Part shown: positions 26,986 through 36,817 of the stretch, in pieces
Layout: every line of letters begins with the position of its first letter
How positions within the stretch are numbered: position 1 is the stretch's first letter
NCBI GenBank assembly: GCA_903828975.1
Contig: CAIKOD010000040.1
Location: 1-39,679 of the forward strand
Direction of reading: 5' to 3'
From: an uncultured Methanomicrobiales archaeon
GTDB taxonomy: Archaea; Halobacteriota; Methanomicrobia; Methanomicrobiales; Methanospirillaceae
DNA: 39,679 bases
Notes under the pieces: model-generated
What the model was told of the DNA's origin: nothing
What the model saw: the letters and a program-made list of their open reading frames with translations, nothing else
The model's database searches: none
Program-made: the position numbers and the translations under genes

Positions 26986-27678
26986 ATGGCCGCATGTACC
27001 CTTGTTATACCGGCCTATAACGAGGAGGAGCGTATCCACCTGCTCCTTTCAGATATAGCGGGTTCCGGCACCACATTTATATTTGTCTGCGACGGGAACG
27101 ATAAGACCGCAGCGATAATCCATGATTTTGCAACAGCAAATCGGAATATGCGGATACGCTGCCTGGAATATCCAGTCAGGCTCGGAAAAGGAAAGGCCAT
27201 CAGGGAAGGACTCAAAATAGCAGTTACACCGTATGCAGGTTACATGGACGCAGATGGTTCTACAGTGCTGGGTGAGATGAATGCACTTCTTCACGGACTG
27301 GGGGAGGCGGATGGCGCGATCGGCTCCCGTTACGTGCCCGGGTCAAGAGTCACCACACCGCAGGGTATATTCAGGAGACTGGAGAGCAGGACGTTCAACC
27401 TTATTATCAGGTTACTCTTTGGCCTGCCATATAACGACACCCAGTGCGGGGCGAAAGTCTTTAAATCAGGTCCATTGGAGCTTATCCTCCCTAAAATTAC
27501 CTCAAACGGGTTCGAATTTGATGTAGAACTGATCTGGCGGATGAGAACATCAGGGTTTGTCGTGAAAGAACTCCCGATTATCTGGCAGAACAGGGGGGAC
27601 TCACGGGTAAAGGGCCAGGACGCCTTTTCAATGGTTATGAACCTCTTAAAACTCAGGATTGGAAGGGAACGAACTTGA
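26986..27678 (+). CDS. Family 2 glycosyltransferase (dolichyl-phosphate sugar transferase-like)
   Basis: A GT2 enzyme of about 230 residues with a GT-A fold. CTLVIPAYNEEERIH starts the nucleotide-binding domain. VRLGKGKAIREGL is followed by the metal motif YMDADGST (the DxD-like site), and GSRYVPGSRV and FGLPYNDTQCGAKVFK are typical of Alg5/DPM1-like transferases. These move a sugar from UDP or GDP to a polyprenyl phosphate for glycan assembly. No C-terminal membrane helices are seen. I prefer the ATG at 26986 (AAGG five bases upstream) to the GTG at 26950. The stop overlaps the TTG start of the TPR gene (TTGA), so this enzyme heads a three-gene operon. Confidence 0.85.
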   Translation: MAACTLVIPAYNEEERIHLLLSDIAGSGTTFIFVCDGNDKTAAIIHDFATANRNMRIRCLEYPVRLGKGKAIREGLKIAVTPYAGYMDADGSTVLGEMNALLHGLGEADGAIGSRYVPGSRVTTPQGIFRRLESRTFNLIIRLLFGLPYNDTQCGAKVFKSGPLELILPKITSNGFEFDVELIWRMRTSGFVVKELPIIWQNRGDSRVKGQDAFSMVMNLLKLRIGRERT

Positions 27679-29483
27679 CAGGTTTTGGCGAGAGAAAACG
27701 GCAGGCATTTCAGCTGTTTGAAGACGGGAACTACGACGGGTCGTATGCCACCTGCATGGCTCTGCTGGGTGAGGACCAGGAACCGCAGGTTGAGGTACTG
27801 GCAGCCACGAACCTGTTTTATCTCGGGCGCCTCGAAGAGGCGGAACTACATTTCCGTGACCTTGCACGGAAAATGCCGGACTCTTCACATGTTCATGGGT
27901 TCCTTGGGAAGGTCCTCCGTGAAAAAGGTGATGAAGGGGCCGTGGCCGAATTCTCCACAGCAGTGCGGCTCGACCCGGATAACCAGGACGCCCTCCGGAA
28001 TTACGCAAAATGCCTCATTGATGCCAGGGATTACCGCAGGTCACTTCCAGCGCAACGACGCCTTGCGACGCACTCCCGGAGAGATGATGACTGCAGGGAC
28101 CTGATTGCTACGCTTATTGCCGTGGGAGAGGGTATTGAAGCACTGGACCAGTACCAGAAGTTCCCCTCCCTGAAAGCGAACGTTGACCCGCTTTTCATCG
28201 ATGCCCTCATTGCCGCAGGAGAGTTTGCAAAGGCCGGGGATGCCGCATCTGCGGAGTTTGAACGTTCCGGGAACAGGGAATTTCTTCGGAAATACCTCGC
28301 GGTCCTTTCACGCTACAATGTTGCCCATGCCCTTTCGGGATACCGGGACGCCTGCATGATGGGGGCGGACTATGGCATTGCGAAGGACTATATCAACCTC
28401 CTTATTTCAGTCCGGGATAATGATGAGGCACTCAGGATGTGCAGGGAACTGGTAACGAATGATAAGGATACGGACAGTTCAGTTCGCCTTATTGAATGCA
28501 GGCTGCTCGTCGGACTTGGTAAGAAAGAAGAGGCAAAATCAACCTACGAAGAACTGATCCGTTCAGGTATCGGGAGTGCAGGGAGTGATGCTTTGCTCCG
28601 TGACGCACTCCCGCTCTACCGCGAGTTCCTCCTGACATATTACCCGAAAAACGAGACATTAAAGACATTCACATCGGTCGTCTCACCGGGTGCGAACCCG
28701 GTATGCCTCTATGAGACCGGGAATCTCTACGAACAGCTCGGGGATGTTACCGAGGCCCGTGGTTGGTACTACCGGGCATACCGGAGCGATTTCCTTACCG
28801 GCGGCCTTGAATATGCGTCATTCCTTGCCCGGCACAAGGAGTGGAGGGAGTGCGAGAAAGTGATGCTGTATATCCTTTCCAACATTAAACGGAGCCGGGA
28901 CATTGTCAGGGTAGCGCAGATAACCACGGGAGGAAATATGATTCACCACACCCCGAGGCTCCTCTTCAGTCTTATCGAACGGCTTGAAGAACGCCGGGAC
29001 AAGCTCCCTGCAGAAGGGCTCGAATTCCTGGCCGTGGCGTATCTGGTTGCAGGGACGAATGCAATAGGTGAAGGCAATTATCCGGCATGCAAACGCTACT
29101 GCCTTCAGGGACTTGATATCCTGCCCGCATATTCGACCTGCATTGCAACGGCAGATTTTATTGCCGTCCTGGGACGCTGCAAGGAGCGGGCGATAGTCGA
29201 CCAGCCGGTAATGGATGATCCGGAAGGGGCTGCAGGAATTTCTATAAGGGATGTGCCAATAGTCCGGATTAGTGGTCTCGAGCCGCAGGAGGAGAAAATC
29301 CTCGAGTTCCTGAAATTACACCGCAAGGCCAGCGAAACAGACCTGCGAAAACTACTCGGGACCCGCCGGGTAACAGGGATAATGAATAAGCTGATTGCCA
29401 AAAGTGTTGCACAGGGTGTGCGGCACGTTGCAAAACGGGGGAGCGGGGAACAGGGGGAGATCTATGAGTATACGGGAGGGTGA
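27675..29483 (+). CDS. TPR-repeat protein with C-terminal winged helix
   Basis: A 602-residue soluble protein made mostly of helical TPR-like repeats. The clearest are LFYLGRLEEAELHFRDLARKMP (about 47-68) and AEFSTAVRLDPDNQDALRNYAKCL. Less regular repeats continue to about residue 510. The last 70 residues (PQEEKILEFLKLHRKASETDLRKLLGTRRVTGIMNKL and on) look like a winged helix that could bind DNA. The gene starts with TTG overlapping the glycosyltransferase stop. Its own stop is five bases before the ATPase start, so translation is coupled on both sides. I know no characterised orthologue. A scaffold or adaptor for the ATPase downstream is an inference. Confidence 0.75.
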   Translation: MTGFGERKRQAFQLFEDGNYDGSYATCMALLGEDQEPQVEVLAATNLFYLGRLEEAELHFRDLARKMPDSSHVHGFLGKVLREKGDEGAVAEFSTAVRLDPDNQDALRNYAKCLIDARDYRRSLPAQRRLATHSRRDDDCRDLIATLIAVGEGIEALDQYQKFPSLKANVDPLFIDALIAAGEFAKAGDAASAEFERSGNREFLRKYLAVLSRYNVAHALSGYRDACMMGADYGIAKDYINLLISVRDNDEALRMCRELVTNDKDTDSSVRLIECRLLVGLGKKEEAKSTYEELIRSGIGSAGSDALLRDALPLYREFLLTYYPKNETLKTFTSVVSPGANPVCLYETGNLYEQLGDVTEARGWYYRAYRSDFLTGGLEYASFLARHKEWRECEKVMLYILSNIKRSRDIVRVAQITTGGNMIHHTPRLLFSLIERLEERRDKLPAEGLEFLAVAYLVAGTNAIGEGNYPACKRYCLQGLDILPAYSTCIATADFIAVLGRCKERAIVDQPVMDDPEGAAGISIRDVPIVRISGLEPQEEKILEFLKLHRKASETDLRKLLGTRRVTGIMNKLIAKSVAQGVRHVAKRGSGEQGEIYEYTGG

Positions 29484-29487
29484 TCGG

Positions 29488-30765
29488 ATGGACGAACAGA
29501 AACTGGAGAGCCTGAATATTATCAACGCGTTACGGCGGGGGACCGTACCTGCCAGCGGACTTGAACGGATAGCAGTCGGTCTGGACGTGGAAGAGGACGT
29601 CATTGCCACGCAGCTGGATTATGTCTCTTCCGGTGGGGGCGACCTCAAGTTTATCCGGGGGGATTACGGGAGCGGGAAGACGTTTCTCGTAGCACGGTCA
29701 CTTGAGATTGCACGTGAAAAAGGATTTGCCACGGCCCATGTCATCATTTCCCCTTCTTCTCCACTCCATAAGCTGAAAGGGATTTACCAGCAGATATGCG
29801 GGAGCCTGCGGACGAAGGAAGACGAGCACGCGCTGAAGACCGTGATCGACAACTGGCTCTATGCTATCGAGGAACGGATCATCCAGGTCACCGGTGAGGG
29901 AATGGATGAGCAGGGGCTCGAAACAGCAACCGAACGGGAGATAGAGTCTGCCCTCGCCGGGATAAGCGAGATGAACTCGTCGCTTGCGGCTGCGCTCAGG
30001 ACGTATTACCGGGCGAATAATACCGGGGACTTCCAGCTTGCGCAGTCTGCGATAGGCTGGCTTTCCGCTGAGCCGAATATCGGCCGCGATTTCAAACAGA
30101 AAGCCGCGATAAAAGGGGATATTGACGAGACCGTTGCATTTGTGTTCCTGAAAGGGATTGTAAAGATCATTATCGGGTCTGGATGCCGGGGCCTGGCCGT
30201 CGCAATCGATGAAGCGGAGATTACGCAGTCCTCCCCGCGGGCGACCCGGGAAAAAGGGTATTCCCTGATACGACAGGTGGTTGATTCACTTGACGGGGGC
30301 GAAATGCCCCACTGCTATTTCCTGGTCACCGGAACACCTTCGCTCTTCGAAGGACCACGCGGGTTCCGCTCACTTCCTGCCCTGTTTGACCGGATCAATG
30401 TTGTCCAGACCGATAAATTCAGGAACCCGAGGCAGCCGCAGATCATTCTGTCGCGGTTCAATACAACCAAGCTCGAAAAAGTCGCCCTGAAGGTCTGTGA
30501 CATCTATTCTGTCGCCTACAAAGAGGTCGACCGGGAGCGGATCTCGCACCGGTTTATCAGGGCGATGATCAGCAAGGTGACGGGAAAATTCGGCGGGAGG
30601 GTGGATATCATCCCGAGGATTTTCTTAAAGGAATTCGTGGATGTACTCGATAAATGTGAGCTCTACGAAGATTATGACCCCTGGGCAGCCTATGAATTTG
30701 ACACCGCCCGCTTAAAAGGTGAACTTCGGGAAGAAGAAGAAGCGGTCATGACGATTGAGTTCTGA
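29488..30765 (+). CDS. BrxD/DUF2791-type P-loop ATPase
   Basis: A 425-residue AAA-like ATPase. RRGTVPASGLERIAVGLD (16-33) is followed by Walker A RGDYGSGKTF (57-66), Walker B AVAIDEAE (237-244, D241/E242) and a sensor strand YFLVTGTPSLFEG. This pattern matches the DUF2791 family (PF10923), whose members include BrxD of type 2 BREX phage-defence systems. The C-terminal quarter (RFIRAMISKVTGKFGGRVDIIPRIFLKEFVDVL) is likely a winged-helix region, as in ORC/Cdc6-like relatives. The ATG at 29488 follows a very strong GGAGGGTGATC. No pglX, pglZ, brxC or brxL is in the window, so function outside BREX is likely. Confidence 0.8.
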   Translation: MDEQKLESLNIINALRRGTVPASGLERIAVGLDVEEDVIATQLDYVSSGGGDLKFIRGDYGSGKTFLVARSLEIAREKGFATAHVIISPSSPLHKLKGIYQQICGSLRTKEDEHALKTVIDNWLYAIEERIIQVTGEGMDEQGLETATEREIESALAGISEMNSSLAAALRTYYRANNTGDFQLAQSAIGWLSAEPNIGRDFKQKAAIKGDIDETVAFVFLKGIVKIIIGSGCRGLAVAIDEAEITQSSPRATREKGYSLIRQVVDSLDGGEMPHCYFLVTGTPSLFEGPRGFRSLPALFDRINVVQTDKFRNPRQPQIILSRFNTTKLEKVALKVCDIYSVAYKEVDRERISHRFIRAMISKVTGKFGGRVDIIPRIFLKEFVDVLDKCELYEDYDPWAAYEFDTARLKGELREEEEAVMTIEF

Positions 30766-30875: not shown

Positions 30876-33800
30876 TTACCGGTACATCCCTTCAGGTACC
30901 ATCATCTCGAACCGTGCTCCCTTGCCAGGTTCGCCGGCCTCGGTGATAGTGATGCCGGTGATTGCAAGGATCTCGCGTGAAATGAACAGCCCGAGACCGG
31001 TATTTTTCCCAAATCCCCGCTCGAAGATCTTCTCTTTCTCATCTACCGCAACACCATCGCCATCGTCCTCACATACAATCACACAATTACCATCGAGTTT
31101 CTCAGTAGAGAACCGTATAGTCGTGATCTTACCGCCGTACCGTACTGCGTTGTCCATCAGGTTGTAAAACACTTTTACAATCAGCGGGTCTGCAAACATT
31201 TCTTTATTGGCAGGAAGATCGTTTTTGACCATGACCTGTCCGAGCGGGGCTTCTTTTGCTGCAGTATCCACGATAATACGACAATCCTGCCAGACGGGGA
31301 CATTGATGCCGATCTCCTCGCATTCGTTGGTGAACCGGATCAAAGACGAGATCCGCTTTGCAGAGGTCGAAACCTTCTGTAAATATTCGTTACATGTTGT
31401 GTCGGGCTGTTTCTTTTCGAGAATACCCAGGTAACCCATCAGCACGGTAAGCTGATTGTTGATGTCATGCCGGGTGATGCGGGAGAGGAGAGTGAGCTTC
31501 TTATTTGCCTGAACGAGTGCTTCCTCCACCCTTTTCCGTTCGGTGATGTCTAATGCAGTAAACGTCACGCCAGTGGTCAGGTCGGAAGGATCGAGCGGTG
31601 TCGAGGAGAGGAGAATATCGATAATCGTCCCGTCTTTCTTCTGCCACCGGGTCTCGACGGAACCGGACCCTTTCTGTGCGATTTGGCCATATTTTTCTCT
31701 GCCGACATATTCGAATTCCTCCTGCGTCTGGTAGAGGGAACTGGAGGATTTGCCGATCAGTTCTTCAGCTGTGTACCCTGTCATCTGGCAAAGAAGATCG
31801 TTGACTGACTGAATGATACGGTTGGATACGACACCGATACCAATCGGTGCGACACGTATGATACTGTTGAGGTGAGACTCACTCTCCCGCACTGACTCTA
31901 TCATCCTGTTGCGTTCTGTGACATCCCTCGTCACCCCGATAAGCACTTCCTGGTTATTCCACCATCCACGGATAACCTTTGTTTCAACTTCGATACGTTC
32001 ACCGCCTTTTGCAAGAACGGGAACCGGGCAGGAATCGATTGTTCCGGCAATCATCCCCTGTACAATTTGAAGTGCTTCAGAACGTCGCTCGGGGACATGC
32101 AACAGCAGGATATTCGTACCGGTAAGTTCCTCCGCTGAATATGAGAGACGTTTCTGAACCGCAGCATTTACTGCAAGGATGTTTCCCTTCATATCCAGTA
32201 CAAAAACCATCTCATCTATCGAGTTGAACAGGGTCTCTAAATTTTTTAATACCTTCTTTGCCTGCTCTTCGGCTACCATTCTCTCTAATGTGCTGCCAAG
32301 TTCCCTGCCTATGGAGGTGAGCGTCTGTTTTTCCGCTTCAGAGATTACATACCTCCTTGAGCTGACGATATTCAGTGCCCCGATAGCCACCCCTTTTGAG
32401 AGTAAGGGGATACTGGCCATCGACTGAAACCCAGACTTCTTCGATCGGTCAGGTGCGATTTGGGCATAATTCTCGGTGATGATCGGTTCATTTTGAATAA
32501 ACAGTGTATCATAGGGTTTTTTATCAATGGATACGCTCTGAATTTCAGTAAGGAGGTCGGAGGGAATATTTTTTGAGTGGACTACATCTGCGGTTCGTGT
32601 CGAATGATCCACAAGGTAGATCCCACCCGCATCGAAATCCAGAAGACGCAGAGATTCCTCCAACATAGTAGTCAGGAGTTTGGGAAGATCCTCTGCCTTG
32701 TTAGCCGAAGAGATAATCTCATTGAGGATTGAGAGCATTGTCGACTGGTGTTTCAGCGCCTCTTCCGATATCCGGGATTCGGTAATATCTAAGAAGGTAA
32801 CGATGACCCCTGTAATTGTACCGCGTTCATCATATTCCGGGTCTGCATGGACAAGCACCCATACCGTATCCTGGCTCCGCGGGCGGAATATCCCCACCGT
32901 CATATTCCTGAATGGTTTCTGTGTAGCGATTACCTGATTGACGGGATAATCTGCAAGGGGAAGGACATTCCCGTCCTCACCTGAAAAATGCCACGAGGGA
33001 TGTGGAGCAATCCTGCCAATTGCCTCATCACGGGTAAGTCCCAGAAGATCAAGCGCGGTCTTGTTTATCATCCGTATACTCGTGTCCGGGTTGTGGACCA
33101 CTACAGCTGCATGAATATGTTCAATCACGCTGCGGTACTTTTCCTCGCTTTCCCGAGACGCTTCCTCCACCCGTTTCCGATCGGTGATGTCCTGGTTGAT
33201 CCCGATCATGCGGAGGGGAGCACCAGTGCTGTCCCAGGAGACCGCCTTTCCTTGTGAATGAACCCAGCGCCATTCTCCGTTTTTATGTTTCATCCGATAT
33301 ATAACATCAAAATAGGGAGTACTCCCAGACAGATGGTCTGCATTTCCCTTCAGGACAGCGGCTAAATCATCCGGGTGCACCCGTTCCTGCCACCAACCCG
33401 AAGGTTTGTCCATATCAGCCCTTGAAAAACCGAGCATTTCAGTCCATTGCCGGTTGTGGATAACTTCATGAGTAATGACGTTTAAGTCCCAGAGTCCGAG
33501 GTGTGCACTTTCAATAGCAAGGTTCAGACGTCCCTCGCTCTCCCGGAGTGCCTGCTCGCTCCTTCCGAGGTCGTCGATATTCTGCCGCAGTTCCTCTTCA
33601 GAAGCAGCCAGCTCCTCATTGACGGCATGGAGTTCTTCAGCTTTTTTGAGCAGTGCCTCTTCTGCCCGCTTTTGCTCCGTGATGTCATGTGTAATATTGA
33701 GAATGTGCGGCACACCGTTTAGTTCGATAATTGAAGTGGACATCACGCCATTAATCTCTCCACTTTTTGTAAGAAAACGGGCCTCGTAATTTCTGACTTC

Positions 33801-34802
33801 CCCATTTGCTTGTAATCCTTCGATAATCTTCCGCCGGTCCTCCGGGTCCTTCCAGATATTTATTTCCAAAGAAGTTTTACCTGCGATATCCTCTTCCGTA
33901 TACCCGGTAATCTCTGTAAATCCTTTATTTACTGATATAAACATGCCGTCATTAAGGCGGGTTATACAAACCGAATCGGGACTGGTGAAGAATGCCTTCC
34001 GGAATTTTTCCTCACTAATCCGCAGTGCCTCTTCCGCCCGCTTTTGCTCTGTAATGTCACGGCCAACTGACTGATATTCCTTCAGGTTGCCATCCTCATG
34101 AAAGATCGCATGGTCAACCCACCGCTGCCACCGGGTGCTACCGTCCGGCATAATGATCCGTTGATCGATGGTCTCAAGGGGATGTTCCGTGGTAAGGGAT
34201 CCGATCAGCCGGGACACACTCACCCTGTCTTCCGGATGAATCGTCGGGTGAAAACGGGTGCCTCGTATTTCCTCCCGGTTCAGCCCGAAATAGCGGCAGT
34301 ATGCGTCGTTCACAAAGACATGGGTCCCATCGGGGAGAAACCGGCAGATCAACTCGGTCTGGTCCTCGACCACATGCCGGTAACTTGTTTCGCTCTCCCT
34401 CAGGGCCCCTTCCACCTGCCTCTGCGTTACTGCATAACGGATCTTGTTCGAAAGTTCAGCGAACTGTGCCTTTGGCTCGCCACCTTTCTGGAGATAAAAA
34501 TCGGCACCCTCATTGAGCGCCTCAATGACCACCTCTTCACGTCCCTTTCCCGTAAAGATAATAAATGGTGTTGTATTCCCCGATGCCTTTAGCTGCTTGA
34601 GAAAAGAGATCCCATCCATATCCGGCATCTGGTAATCGGAGATAATAGCGTCATACCGCTCGGATTCCATCTGCTTTAGTGCGACTACGGCTGAAGTGAG
34701 CGTGTCGATAACAAATGCCCCCTCTTTTTCGAGAAAGAGTTTGGCGATCGCAAGCAGGTCCGTTTCATCATCTACGTAGAGGACCCGGAGGGTAGACGGC
34801 AT
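30876..34802 (-). CDS. Giant hybrid sensor histidine kinase, REC-PAS(6)-GAF-kinase
   Basis: A 1308-residue soluble multi-sensor kinase. An N-terminal receiver domain (1-125) has acids D11-D12, phospho-acceptor D56 and the conserved FTGKG loop. About six PAS domains follow (near 144, 272, 430, 560, 855 and 975), with a GAF domain at about 690-850 that contains ESLRLLDFDAGGIYLVD. The kinase core has the H-box ITRHDINNQL (H about 1112), N-box NLMDNAVRYGG (about 1215), G1 EDDGDGV and G2 NTGLGLFIS. Placement of REC before the sensors suggests it is the output of another kinase that tunes this one. No membrane helix is visible. AGGAAG precedes the ATG. It is paralogous to the gene at 36877. Confidence 0.93.
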   Translation of the reverse strand: MPSTLRVLYVDDETDLLAIAKLFLEKEGAFVIDTLTSAVVALKQMESERYDAIISDYQMPDMDGISFLKQLKASGNTTPFIIFTGKGREEVVIEALNEGADFYLQKGGEPKAQFAELSNKIRYAVTQRQVEGALRESETSYRHVVEDQTELICRFLPDGTHVFVNDAYCRYFGLNREEIRGTRFHPTIHPEDRVSVSRLIGSLTTEHPLETIDQRIIMPDGSTRWQRWVDHAIFHEDGNLKEYQSVGRDITEQKRAEEALRISEEKFRKAFFTSPDSVCITRLNDGMFISVNKGFTEITGYTEEDIAGKTSLEINIWKDPEDRRKIIEGLQANGEVRNYEARFLTKSGEINGVMSTSIIELNGVPHILNITHDITEQKRAEEALLKKAEELHAVNEELAASEEELRQNIDDLGRSEQALRESEGRLNLAIESAHLGLWDLNVITHEVIHNRQWTEMLGFSRADMDKPSGWWQERVHPDDLAAVLKGNADHLSGSTPYFDVIYRMKHKNGEWRWVHSQGKAVSWDSTGAPLRMIGINQDITDRKRVEEASRESEEKYRSVIEHIHAAVVVHNPDTSIRMINKTALDLLGLTRDEAIGRIAPHPSWHFSGEDGNVLPLADYPVNQVIATQKPFRNMTVGIFRPRSQDTVWVLVHADPEYDERGTITGVIVTFLDITESRISEEALKHQSTMLSILNEIISSANKAEDLPKLLTTMLEESLRLLDFDAGGIYLVDHSTRTADVVHSKNIPSDLLTEIQSVSIDKKPYDTLFIQNEPIITENYAQIAPDRSKKSGFQSMASIPLLSKGVAIGALNIVSSRRYVISEAEKQTLTSIGRELGSTLERMVAEEQAKKVLKNLETLFNSIDEMVFVLDMKGNILAVNAAVQKRLSYSAEELTGTNILLLHVPERRSEALQIVQGMIAGTIDSCPVPVLAKGGERIEVETKVIRGWWNNQEVLIGVTRDVTERNRMIESVRESESHLNSIIRVAPIGIGVVSNRIIQSVNDLLCQMTGYTAEELIGKSSSSLYQTQEEFEYVGREKYGQIAQKGSGSVETRWQKKDGTIIDILLSSTPLDPSDLTTGVTFTALDITERKRVEEALVQANKKLTLLSRITRHDINNQLTVLMGYLGILEKKQPDTTCNEYLQKVSTSAKRISSLIRFTNECEEIGINVPVWQDCRIIVDTAAKEAPLGQVMVKNDLPANKEMFADPLIVKVFYNLMDNAVRYGGKITTIRFSTEKLDGNCVIVCEDDGDGVAVDEKEKIFERGFGKNTGLGLFISREILAITGITITEAGEPGKGARFEMMVPEGMYR

Positions 34803-35017: not shown

Positions 35018-35386
35018 TTAATCAGCTATCGCAAGTTCGATAGCAACCCGGAGTCCTTCATCGTCAAACGGCTTCTTAATATAGCCCTTCGGACCGGTCT
35101 TTTTTGCACGTTTCAGAAAGTTCTCTTCGGTATGCGAGGTCAGGTAGATGAATGGGATCTTGGTCTTTGATGCAAGGAATTCTCCAATATTTATACCATC
35201 CATATCTCCCTGGAGCTGGATATCCAGGAGGACAAGGTCAGGTGTTAATTGTTGTATCTTTTCAATTGCCTCCTCACCATTGTTCGAAGAACCGCAGACG
35301 CTATGACCGAGTTTTGTCAGTCGCCATTCAATGACCCTGGCAAGGATTTCATCATCTTCAACAAAAAAAATCCTGGATTGTTTCAT
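35018..35386 (-). CDS. Stand-alone response regulator receiver (CheY-like)
   Basis: A 122-residue receiver domain with complete phosphorylation machinery: acids E10-D11-D12 (FFVEDDE), phospho-acceptor D55 (LVLLDIQLQG), switch threonine T83 (FIYLTSHTEE) and lysine K104 (GYIKKPFDDEGL). No output domain is attached. It starts with ATG after GAGGGAAC. It is divergent from the membrane kinase at 35513, with 126 bases between them, which makes that kinase a likely partner. The downstream kinase-tail fossil suggests it was once the receiver part of a hybrid protein. It ends with IELAIAD at a TAA, close to the usual domain boundary, so it should still fold. Confidence 0.9.
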   Translation of the reverse strand: MKQSRIFFVEDDEILARVIEWRLTKLGHSVCGSSNNGEEAIEKIQQLTPDLVLLDIQLQGDMDGINIGEFLASKTKIPFIYLTSHTEENFLKRAKKTGPKGYIKKPFDDEGLRVAIELAIAD

Positions 35387-35512
35387 TCTGTTCCCTCGTA
35401 AAAGATAGCAAATAGAAATGATTATTATCCCATTTATTCACTATACACTATTAATTGCTTTGCTTTCAGAGTGTAAAGAAATTCGATAATATTTTGAGTT
35501 TCAGAGATTTCT

Positions 35513-36817
35513 ATGAAAAATAATGTATCAAACGCCCGGATACTGACACTCCTGTTTATTATTTTCATCGTTTTCATTACATTTTCCTCATTCATCTATA
35601 TTGATACGGTTGCGAGAAGCGCTCTTAAGGAGTCGACGCGTGAACGCCTTGTGGGGTCTGCATCAATTATTGCGACTCAGCTAAACGGTGACGATATCAA
35701 TCAAATACATCCCGGGGATGAATCTACCCAGACATTTGTTTACCTGCGTGATTCTCTTAACGCGATTCACCAATCGGACCCCTCAATCAAATATTTGTAT
35801 ACCATGCGTCAGAACGGCAGTGTTGTTGAATTTATCGTAGATGCCGATTATGGGATCAGACCTGATGGAGCGCCCATTGGTATGGTTTATCCTGACCCCC
35901 CGGCGGCCCTTCTTAATGGATTCAGTCAGCCCACTGCCGTAACAGAGTTTTACACGGATGAGTGGGGGACCCTGCTTTCAGGGTTTGCACCGATCCACGA
36001 CAGCCGGGGTCAGGTTGTTGGAATTGTCGGGGTAGATATGGAAAGCAGGGATGTGCTCAGACGGATGGAATACGTTAGTACTATATTTTATGTCTTATTG
36101 ATCATTATCCTGGCAATCCTTGTAACAGGGGCTATTATTTTTGATATCCGGCGGACACGCGTTGAAACCATGATGAATCTTGCCAACCGGAAGCTGAATT
36201 TATTGAATAGTATCATCAGGCATGATGTGCTCAACACCCTCACGTCACTTATCGGTTACGAGGAGATGACGGAAGAGATAGCGACAGATCCGGATGTCCG
36301 GAAAAATCTTGCAATAATCTCCGCACAGACCGAGAAATTAACTAAACAAATTGCATTCACAAGGGATTACCAGAACCTCGGGATGAGCATGCCGGAATGG
36401 CAGAATGTCGATGATGTTGTGCGCAAGGCTGCTTCGGAAATGGACATGACGTCTGTATTTTTTACGACTGCTTTTTCCAATCTCAAAATTTATGCCGACC
36501 CTTTGCTGGAAAGGGTATTTTACACCCTGCTTCGGAATAGTCTCGAACACGGTAAGACCATATCATGGATACGGGGGTATTACCGGATTTCGAATTCCAG
36601 TCTTATATTGGTCTTCGAAGATAATGGTATCGGCATACCAGAGAAAGAAAAAACCGCCATATTCAATCGTAAATATTATAAAAGTACCGGACTCGGGTTA
36701 TTTCTCGTACAGGAAATCCTTTCCATGACAAATATTTCTATTAAGGAAGCAGGTATACCCGGAGAAGGGGCACGGTTCGAAATTTCCGTCCCAACTGATG
36801 TATACCGTTTGAAATAA
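35513..36817 (+). CDS. Membrane-bound sensor histidine kinase with extracytoplasmic sensor
   Basis: A 434-residue kinase. Membrane helix 1 is at about 9-31. An outside sensor domain (32-188) has Cache/PAS-like features: KYLYTMRQNGSVVEFIVDADYG, then a GFAPIHDSRGQVVGIVGVD strand pair. Helix 2 is at 191-211. The dimerisation segment has the H-box SIIRHDVLNTL with H237. The ATPase part shows N-box RNSLEHG, FEDNGIGIPEKEK, and STGLGLFLVQEIL. There is no HAMP domain and no receiver. The core resembles those of the two giant kinases (LNLLNSI(I)RHD versus LLSxITRHD), so all share ancestry. It converges on the gene at 36877 and diverges from the REC protein. Confidence 0.9.
   Translation: MKNNVSNARILTLLFIIFIVFITFSSFIYIDTVARSALKESTRERLVGSASIIATQLNGDDINQIHPGDESTQTFVYLRDSLNAIHQSDPSIKYLYTMRQNGSVVEFIVDADYGIRPDGAPIGMVYPDPPAALLNGFSQPTAVTEFYTDEWGTLLSGFAPIHDSRGQVVGIVGVDMESRDVLRRMEYVSTIFYVLLIIILAILVTGAIIFDIRRTRVETMMNLANRKLNLLNSIIRHDVLNTLTSLIGYEEMTEEIATDPDVRKNLAIISAQTEKLTKQIAFTRDYQNLGMSMPEWQNVDDVVRKAASEMDMTSVFFTTAFSNLKIYADPLLERVFYTLLRNSLEHGKTISWIRGYYRISNSSLILVFEDNGIGIPEKEKTAIFNRKYYKSTGLGLFLVQEILSMTNISIKEAGIPGEGARFEISVPTDVYRLK

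Follow-up and report, generated by a model that had tools for sequence, protein, structure and literature searches.

Which partners does a BrxD-family ATPase work with when it is encoded in a methanogenic archaeon, away from any recognizable BREX (bacteriophage exclusion) locus, and what might it do there? The question is raised by a stretch of 39,679 nt (hereinafter the window, which denotes the whole stretch of DNA analysed) on contig C40 of a genome of 2.58 Mb from an archaeon of the order Methanomicrobiales. Three consecutive genes on the plus strand of the window encode a GT2 family glycosyltransferase, a tetratricopeptide repeat (TPR) protein and the ATPase in question. An earlier, sequence-only reading of this DNA described the three-gene run, the TTGA overlap between the first two genes and the archaeal host, all of which are real, and took the three proteins for one set, which does not hold for the GT2. 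The evidence given below indicates that the TPR protein and the ATPase (the pair) very probably form one functional unit with a BrxHI-like helicase encoded elsewhere in the genome (together, the trio). We put at roughly 0.6 the probability that this unit is a loader/helicase dyad of the BrxD-BrxHI kind typical of type-2 BREX, joined by a TPR/winged-helix adaptor, and that it is passed on vertically and used for chromosome maintenance or fixed immunity.

The ATPase (29464-30765, plus strand, or from 29488 with the minimal start) matches the PF10923 (BrxC_BrxD) family with 1.5e-123 and 413 bits (cut-off 22), the NCBIfam BrxD equivalog NF033438 with 397.5 bits (cut-off 350) and the PADLOC BrxD model with 1.4e-120 and 401 bits. 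Among 20 orthologues, the Walker A motif (GDYGSGKT, 29659-29682, plus strand) is conserved as GxxGSGKT, with key residues invariant or nearly so, and the acidic pair of Walker B (DE, D240/E241, 30208-30213, plus strand) is invariant. With scores above the family cut-off and intact Walker motifs, the protein can be assigned, by sequence, to the BrxD family of AAA+ ATPases of the ORC (origin recognition complex)/Cdc6 type, in line with the sequence-only reading. Its clade is sister to BREX-2 BrxD (support of 89 in the Shimodaira-Hasegawa-like approximate likelihood ratio test, SH-aLRT) and, within the order, broadly tracks the species tree; the ratio of nonsynonymous to synonymous substitution rates (dN/dS) against congeners is ~0.05.

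The TPR protein (602 aa; 27675-29483, plus strand; TPR_19, 1.5e-14) is modelled by AlphaFold as an all-helical superhelix followed by a C-terminal winged helix, with a mean predicted local distance difference test score (pLDDT) of 85.8. The winged helix, which had been correctly anticipated, comprises residues 537-599 (29283-29471, plus strand), has the secondary structure order H-H-H-E-E in the model and is the best conserved part of the protein in the alignment (LGTRRVAG...NRLI...GE.GEIYEY): in comparison with L042, nonsynonymous divergence (pN) is 0.070 for the winged helix and 0.124 for the whole protein. Against congeners, the dN/dS of the TPR protein is ~0.13. The phylum-level search yielded no orthologues outside Methanomicrobiales, only generic TPR matches. 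Foldseek matches of the model to Naa15, Ctr9 and Ski3 reflect a generic superhelix and were not used as evidence.

We surveyed 199 genomes of the order, 132 of which are at least 90% complete and constitute the high-quality subset. In three families, almost every member encodes the TPR protein, as a single copy; three other families lack it. Orthologues of the ATPase (50-96% identical) are found in the same genomes, directly downstream of the TPR gene and a few bases away, so that the two genes are adjacent wherever they occur in the order, a linkage far beyond chance that upholds the TPR-ATPase association proposed in the sequence-only reading. The other BrxD-like proteins of the order are 24-30% identical to this ATPase, sporadic and mostly encoded in loci of the Shango type, in which the ATPase is accompanied by a TerB protein and a helicase.

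Because BrxD and the Shango ATPase SngB both pair with a superfamily 2 (SF2) helicase, a helicase was sought in trans. Genomes with the pair hold a helicase of ~700 aa, which in most of them scores 500-559 bits against the BrxHI model; in genomes without the pair, the best match to that model is mainly the widespread 900-aa Lhr type. In the source genome, the helicase (G000:C183:6983-9139, minus strand) is encoded on a contig separate from that of the pair and has BrxHI (PDLC02503) as its best match, with 553 bits across residues 4-698. The SF2 motifs (TAGGKT, DEVH, SAT, QRMGRSGR) are present, with the catalytic ones intact, and the full-length match together with these motifs points to a member of the BrxHI family of Lhr/Ski2-type helicases. 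The earlier statement that no other BREX genes or helicase are in view is correct for the neighbourhood of the ATPase; the genome, however, encodes a BrxHI-type helicase on another contig. When this protein was used as the query, scores in the order were bimodal, with orthologues at 318 bits or more and the other Lhr and Shango helicases at 256 or less. Across the phylum, trio genomes scored 833 bits or more with the helicase profile, family f12 scored 541, and all others scored 407 or less. The trio helicases form one clade in the tree. The helicase gene usually follows a thioredoxin gene, in many genomes near lysS, and in the genomes examined it is not adjacent to the ATPase gene, the two loci being separated by at least 45 kb.

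The three genes are present or absent together. Among the 132 high-quality genomes, 83 encode all three, 49 encode none, and mixed sets are not found; within the three families, the trio is present in 83 of the 85 high-quality genomes. All mixed cases are less than 90% complete: G189, G190 and G193 are without the helicase, G126, G191 and G195 are without the pair, and G130 and G150 contain fragments. In the first of these fragment-bearing genomes, a 1.2-Mb Methanocorpusculum-like one, the TPR and ATPase genes (L247:7841-11477) are frameshifted and a neighbouring gene is broken too, a state in which decay is indistinguishable from sequencing error.

The trio is also lost jointly. In the RpoA' tree, on which losses were placed, G156 (complete, 3,544,738 bp) and G177 fall inside a Methanospirillum-like genus, as the sister group of G182, and the other members sampled from this genus all have the trio. 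G156 and G182 are collinear over ~61 kb, and the only two deletions of more than 1 kb in G156 remove, respectively, the TPR and ATPase genes (3.1 kb reduced to ~60 bp) and, 45 kb away, the helicase gene (2.1 kb reduced to ~90 bp). The genes at the deletion edges, GT2 and thioredoxin, are intact, as are pyrG, hisD and lysS. Over the whole tree, the pair requires at least five changes, and the helicase six, the sixth only through scoring the incomplete G189 as lacking it.

Co-evolution of the proteins points the same way. We calculated partial correlations of protein distances, with the RpoA' distances removed, for 36 gene pairs in all. The three highest values belong to ATPase-helicase (0.90), TPR-helicase (0.88) and TPR-ATPase (0.79), and none of the remaining 33 pairs exceeds 0.66. 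The signal is not a product of adjacency, because the adjacent TPR and GT2 genes correlate at only 0.37 and the helicase and thioredoxin genes at -0.04. The thioredoxin gene was considered as a fourth member of the unit and rejected on this value and on its retention in G156.

By analogy with the loader function suggested for BrxD, we propose that the trio probably acts in the order adaptor, ORC-like loader, helicase. The TPR/winged-helix protein would bind DNA or a DNA-bound target and hold the ATPase, which would, at the expense of ATP, place the helicase on the bound DNA or activate it there; the helicase would then unwind or strip the DNA. The three proteins would form a physical complex, with DNA as the substrate. 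The unit would have lost, or never had, the methyltransferase, PglZ and PglW of BREX, and mobile, modification-based defence is a less likely present job for it than maintenance of the chromosome (by repair or fork rescue) or a fixed, non-mobile surveillance. Between antiviral defence on the one hand and chromosome maintenance or constitutive surveillance on the other, we lean slightly towards the latter, because genes that are single-copy, vertically inherited, placed at conserved sites and under strong purifying selection are unlike mobile defence genes.

Several observations weigh against this proposal. The losses are repeated (five changes on the tree), and such repeated clean losses mean that the trio is dispensable, not essential. 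The well-supported independent contrasts number only three, which are all concordant, and with so few a sign test does not reach significance. Distance correlations can mirror shared lineage effects, and all three proteins evolve faster in the Methanospirillum-like group, which is the source of part of the correlation signal. The winged helix has no sequence homologue detectable in the PDB, and its DNA binding is putative. The AlphaFold model of the ATPase is reliable in the core only, with low confidence past residue 340, and its fold matches to RdrA, archaeal ORC2 and BrxC are all weak.

Could the helicase and the pair be parts of a single BREX system whose genes have become scattered? PglZ (PF08665) has no match in the whole source genome and is found, sporadically, in 18 of the 199 genomes of the order; the trio is therefore not a genome-split BREX, in agreement with the sequence-only reading. 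No conserved PglX/BrxX or BrxC/PglY gene was found, by size and clustering, beside the pair (21 loci) or the helicase (20 loci), these neighbourhoods being the extent of that search. A high-scoring PglZ is encoded in the Methanospirillum-like G156 (G156:C1:2150738-2151259), G177 and G197, which have lost the trio, and six of the seven genomes with this PglZ type are without the trio. These genomes are few and related, and the pattern was accordingly kept as a hint and not as mutual exclusion; it may hint at an overlapping function or at incompatibility with BREX.

The alternative that survives best, in our judgement less likely than not, is a vertically fixed antiviral system resembling Shango, in which the adaptor, the BrxD/SngB-like ATPase and the helicase recognise and block invading DNA or replication intermediates without self-marking. 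The part list is indeed that of Shango, with the TPR/winged-helix protein in place of the TerB protein (PMC10250203), its relatives in BREX-2 and Shango serve defence, the trio can be dispensed with over long times, and the three g12 genomes that have lost it carry the high-scoring PglZ. However, the pair is adjacent at a mostly conserved chromosomal site and has a single copy in almost every member of three families, whereas genuine Shango and other BrxD-like loci of the order are sporadic. The ATPase tree and the low dN/dS of the ATPase likewise speak for vertical inheritance under constraint, IMG/VR viral contigs and phage records yielded no trio, and none of the plasmid matches exceeds 60% identity.

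A transcription regulator in which the AAA+ ATPase activates the TPR/winged-helix protein, following the logic of STAND/MalT-like proteins and with only an indirect link to the helicase, appears improbable. The combination of TPR, winged helix and AAA+ ATPase resembles a regulator architecture, and the winged helix is the most conserved segment of its protein, but BrxD-family ATPases pair with helicases in BREX-2, in Shango and in family f12, and here the helicase is lost together with the pair.

Two further explanations are very unlikely. A surface-glycan or regulatory machine made of GT2, TPR protein and ATPase, as had been entertained for this locus, would fit the shared strand, the overlapping genes and the position of the GT2 directly upstream of the pair in most Methanoregula-/Methanospirillum-type genomes and one Methanocalculus-type genome, but in those Methanofollis and Methanocorpusculum loci that were examined the GT2 does not adjoin the pair; it is also retained in the G156 deletion and correlates with the trio at only 0.21-0.37 (ATPase-GT2, 0.21), so that it falls outside the unit and the glycan idea loses its basis. 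That the trio is what decay has left of a full type-2 BREX locus, retained by chance, is compatible with the sister position of the ATPase clade and contradicted by the strong purifying selection, the intact motifs, the near-universal presence in the three families and the added TPR/winged-helix protein, which is not known from BREX.

At the level of the locus itself, the GT2 gene (26986-27678, plus strand; PF00535, 6e-14; polyprenyl-phosphate sugar synthase-like) starts with ATG at 26986 and ends with TGA at 27676-27678, which overlaps the TTG start of the TPR gene (27675-27677). For the ATPase gene there are two start candidates, an ATG at 29464, within the TPR gene and behind GGGGGAG, and an in-frame ATG at 29488, which matches the start available in Methanofollis-type genes. 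The former is the likely start, with a 20-nt overlap with the TPR gene, because most relatives keep an ATG at this position, inside the codons of the conserved GEIYEY end. In Methanoregula-/Methanospirillum-type genomes, the usual neighbours of the pair are hisC, argD, guaA, pyrG, a thioesterase gene and hisD. Downstream of the ATPase gene, the window encodes a hybrid histidine kinase of 1308 aa that has multiple PAS/GAF domains and, at its N-terminus, a receiver domain (30876-34802); a response regulator and a further kinase come next (35018-36817). These genes are not kept beside the pair in most relatives.

The significance of the trio lies in what it isolates. BrxD and BrxHI are a tightly linked dyad whose role in BREX is unknown, helicase loading being only a suggestion in the literature (PMC12839542). 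In Methanomicrobiales, both are encoded outside any recognised BREX locus, together with a single additional partner, and are kept as ordinary single-copy chromosomal genes at two places. The module is thereby set apart for biochemistry, the job of the BrxD and BrxHI parts can be tested on their own, and related strains that cleanly lack all three genes are natural nulls. There is also a caution for annotation, as such core genes will be given the name "BREX system protein BrxD" by pipelines and may then be tallied among defence genes.

Among known systems, type-2 BREX is the closest. The ATPase is ~40% identical to plasmid homologues annotated as brxD and exceeds the BrxD equivalog cut-off, the helicase has BrxHI as its best match, and on type-2 BREX plasmids the nearest relatives of both are neighbours, beside pglZ. 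Unlike in BREX-2, where the dyad genes are adjacent, the trio helicase is encoded at a separate locus, PglZ is missing from the source genome and no BREX gene was seen near the pair, and the trio has an extra TPR/winged-helix protein and consists of vertically inherited, core-like genes. Type-2 BREX has been reported only outside archaea, and the text of the BREX survey mentions neither TPR proteins nor methanogens (PMC12839542). A candidate further variant of the ATPase-helicase combination is found on a Deinococcus psychrotolerans plasmid (L244:7602-12395), where genes for a BREX ATP-binding protein and a helicase accompany that of a hypothetical protein of 451 aa, with an ATPase/helicase pair again a few kb downstream.

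Shango (SngABC), which consists of a TerB protein, an ATPase and a helicase and is antiphage in Pseudomonas (PMC10250203), shares with the trio the three-part plan of adaptor, BrxD-like ATPase and SF2 helicase, and no methylase or nuclease domain was found in either. The trio is nevertheless not Shango, because its adaptor, built of TPR and winged helix, has no TerB match and no profile similarity to SngA. Homology of the TPR protein C-terminus to the SngA/TerB-C region looked plausible by eye and was rejected, as hhalign against nine SngA-type proteins gave a probability of 0.6%. In addition, the trio ATPase scores 158 bits (1e-46) against SngB versus 401 against BrxD, and the trio is neither one operon nor seen on mobile elements.

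Within the phylum, family f12 has the nearest relative of the ATPase outside the order, as judged by the phylum-level search. There a BrxD-like ATPase (7e-65 to 3e-70) adjoins a helicase (541 bits), with no BREX gene in the fetched stretch; unlike in the trio, the genes are contiguous and the partner is a small 258-aa protein without a Pfam or PADLOC match. In these loci (L142:167-4322 and L143:349-4517), the ATPase gene lies between those of the 258-aa protein and the BrxHI-like helicase, and this is possibly another adaptor-plus-dyad system. In other archaea of the phylum and in family f2 (L149:3997-9729, L150 and L152), a ~280-aa protein is encoded with neighbouring BrxD-like ATPases, one of ~414 aa and a second one. 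The aLhr1-type archaeal Lhr shares the SF2 helicase core with the trio helicase but is ~900 aa long, is present in most genomes with or without the trio and does not score above 407 bits with the profile of the trio helicase; in a survey of Lhr, just two archaea are named as having an Lhr-like protein, and Methanomicrobiales includes neither (PMC8301817). Taken together with these relatives, the trio may, as a tentative proposal that we hold at somewhat less than even odds, represent a housekeeping archaeal DNA machine in which an ORC-like ATPase loads an Lhr/Ski2-type helicase under the control of a TPR/winged-helix adaptor, with BREX-2 and Shango being defence users, and not the sole users, of a shared loader-helicase engine with exchangeable adaptors.

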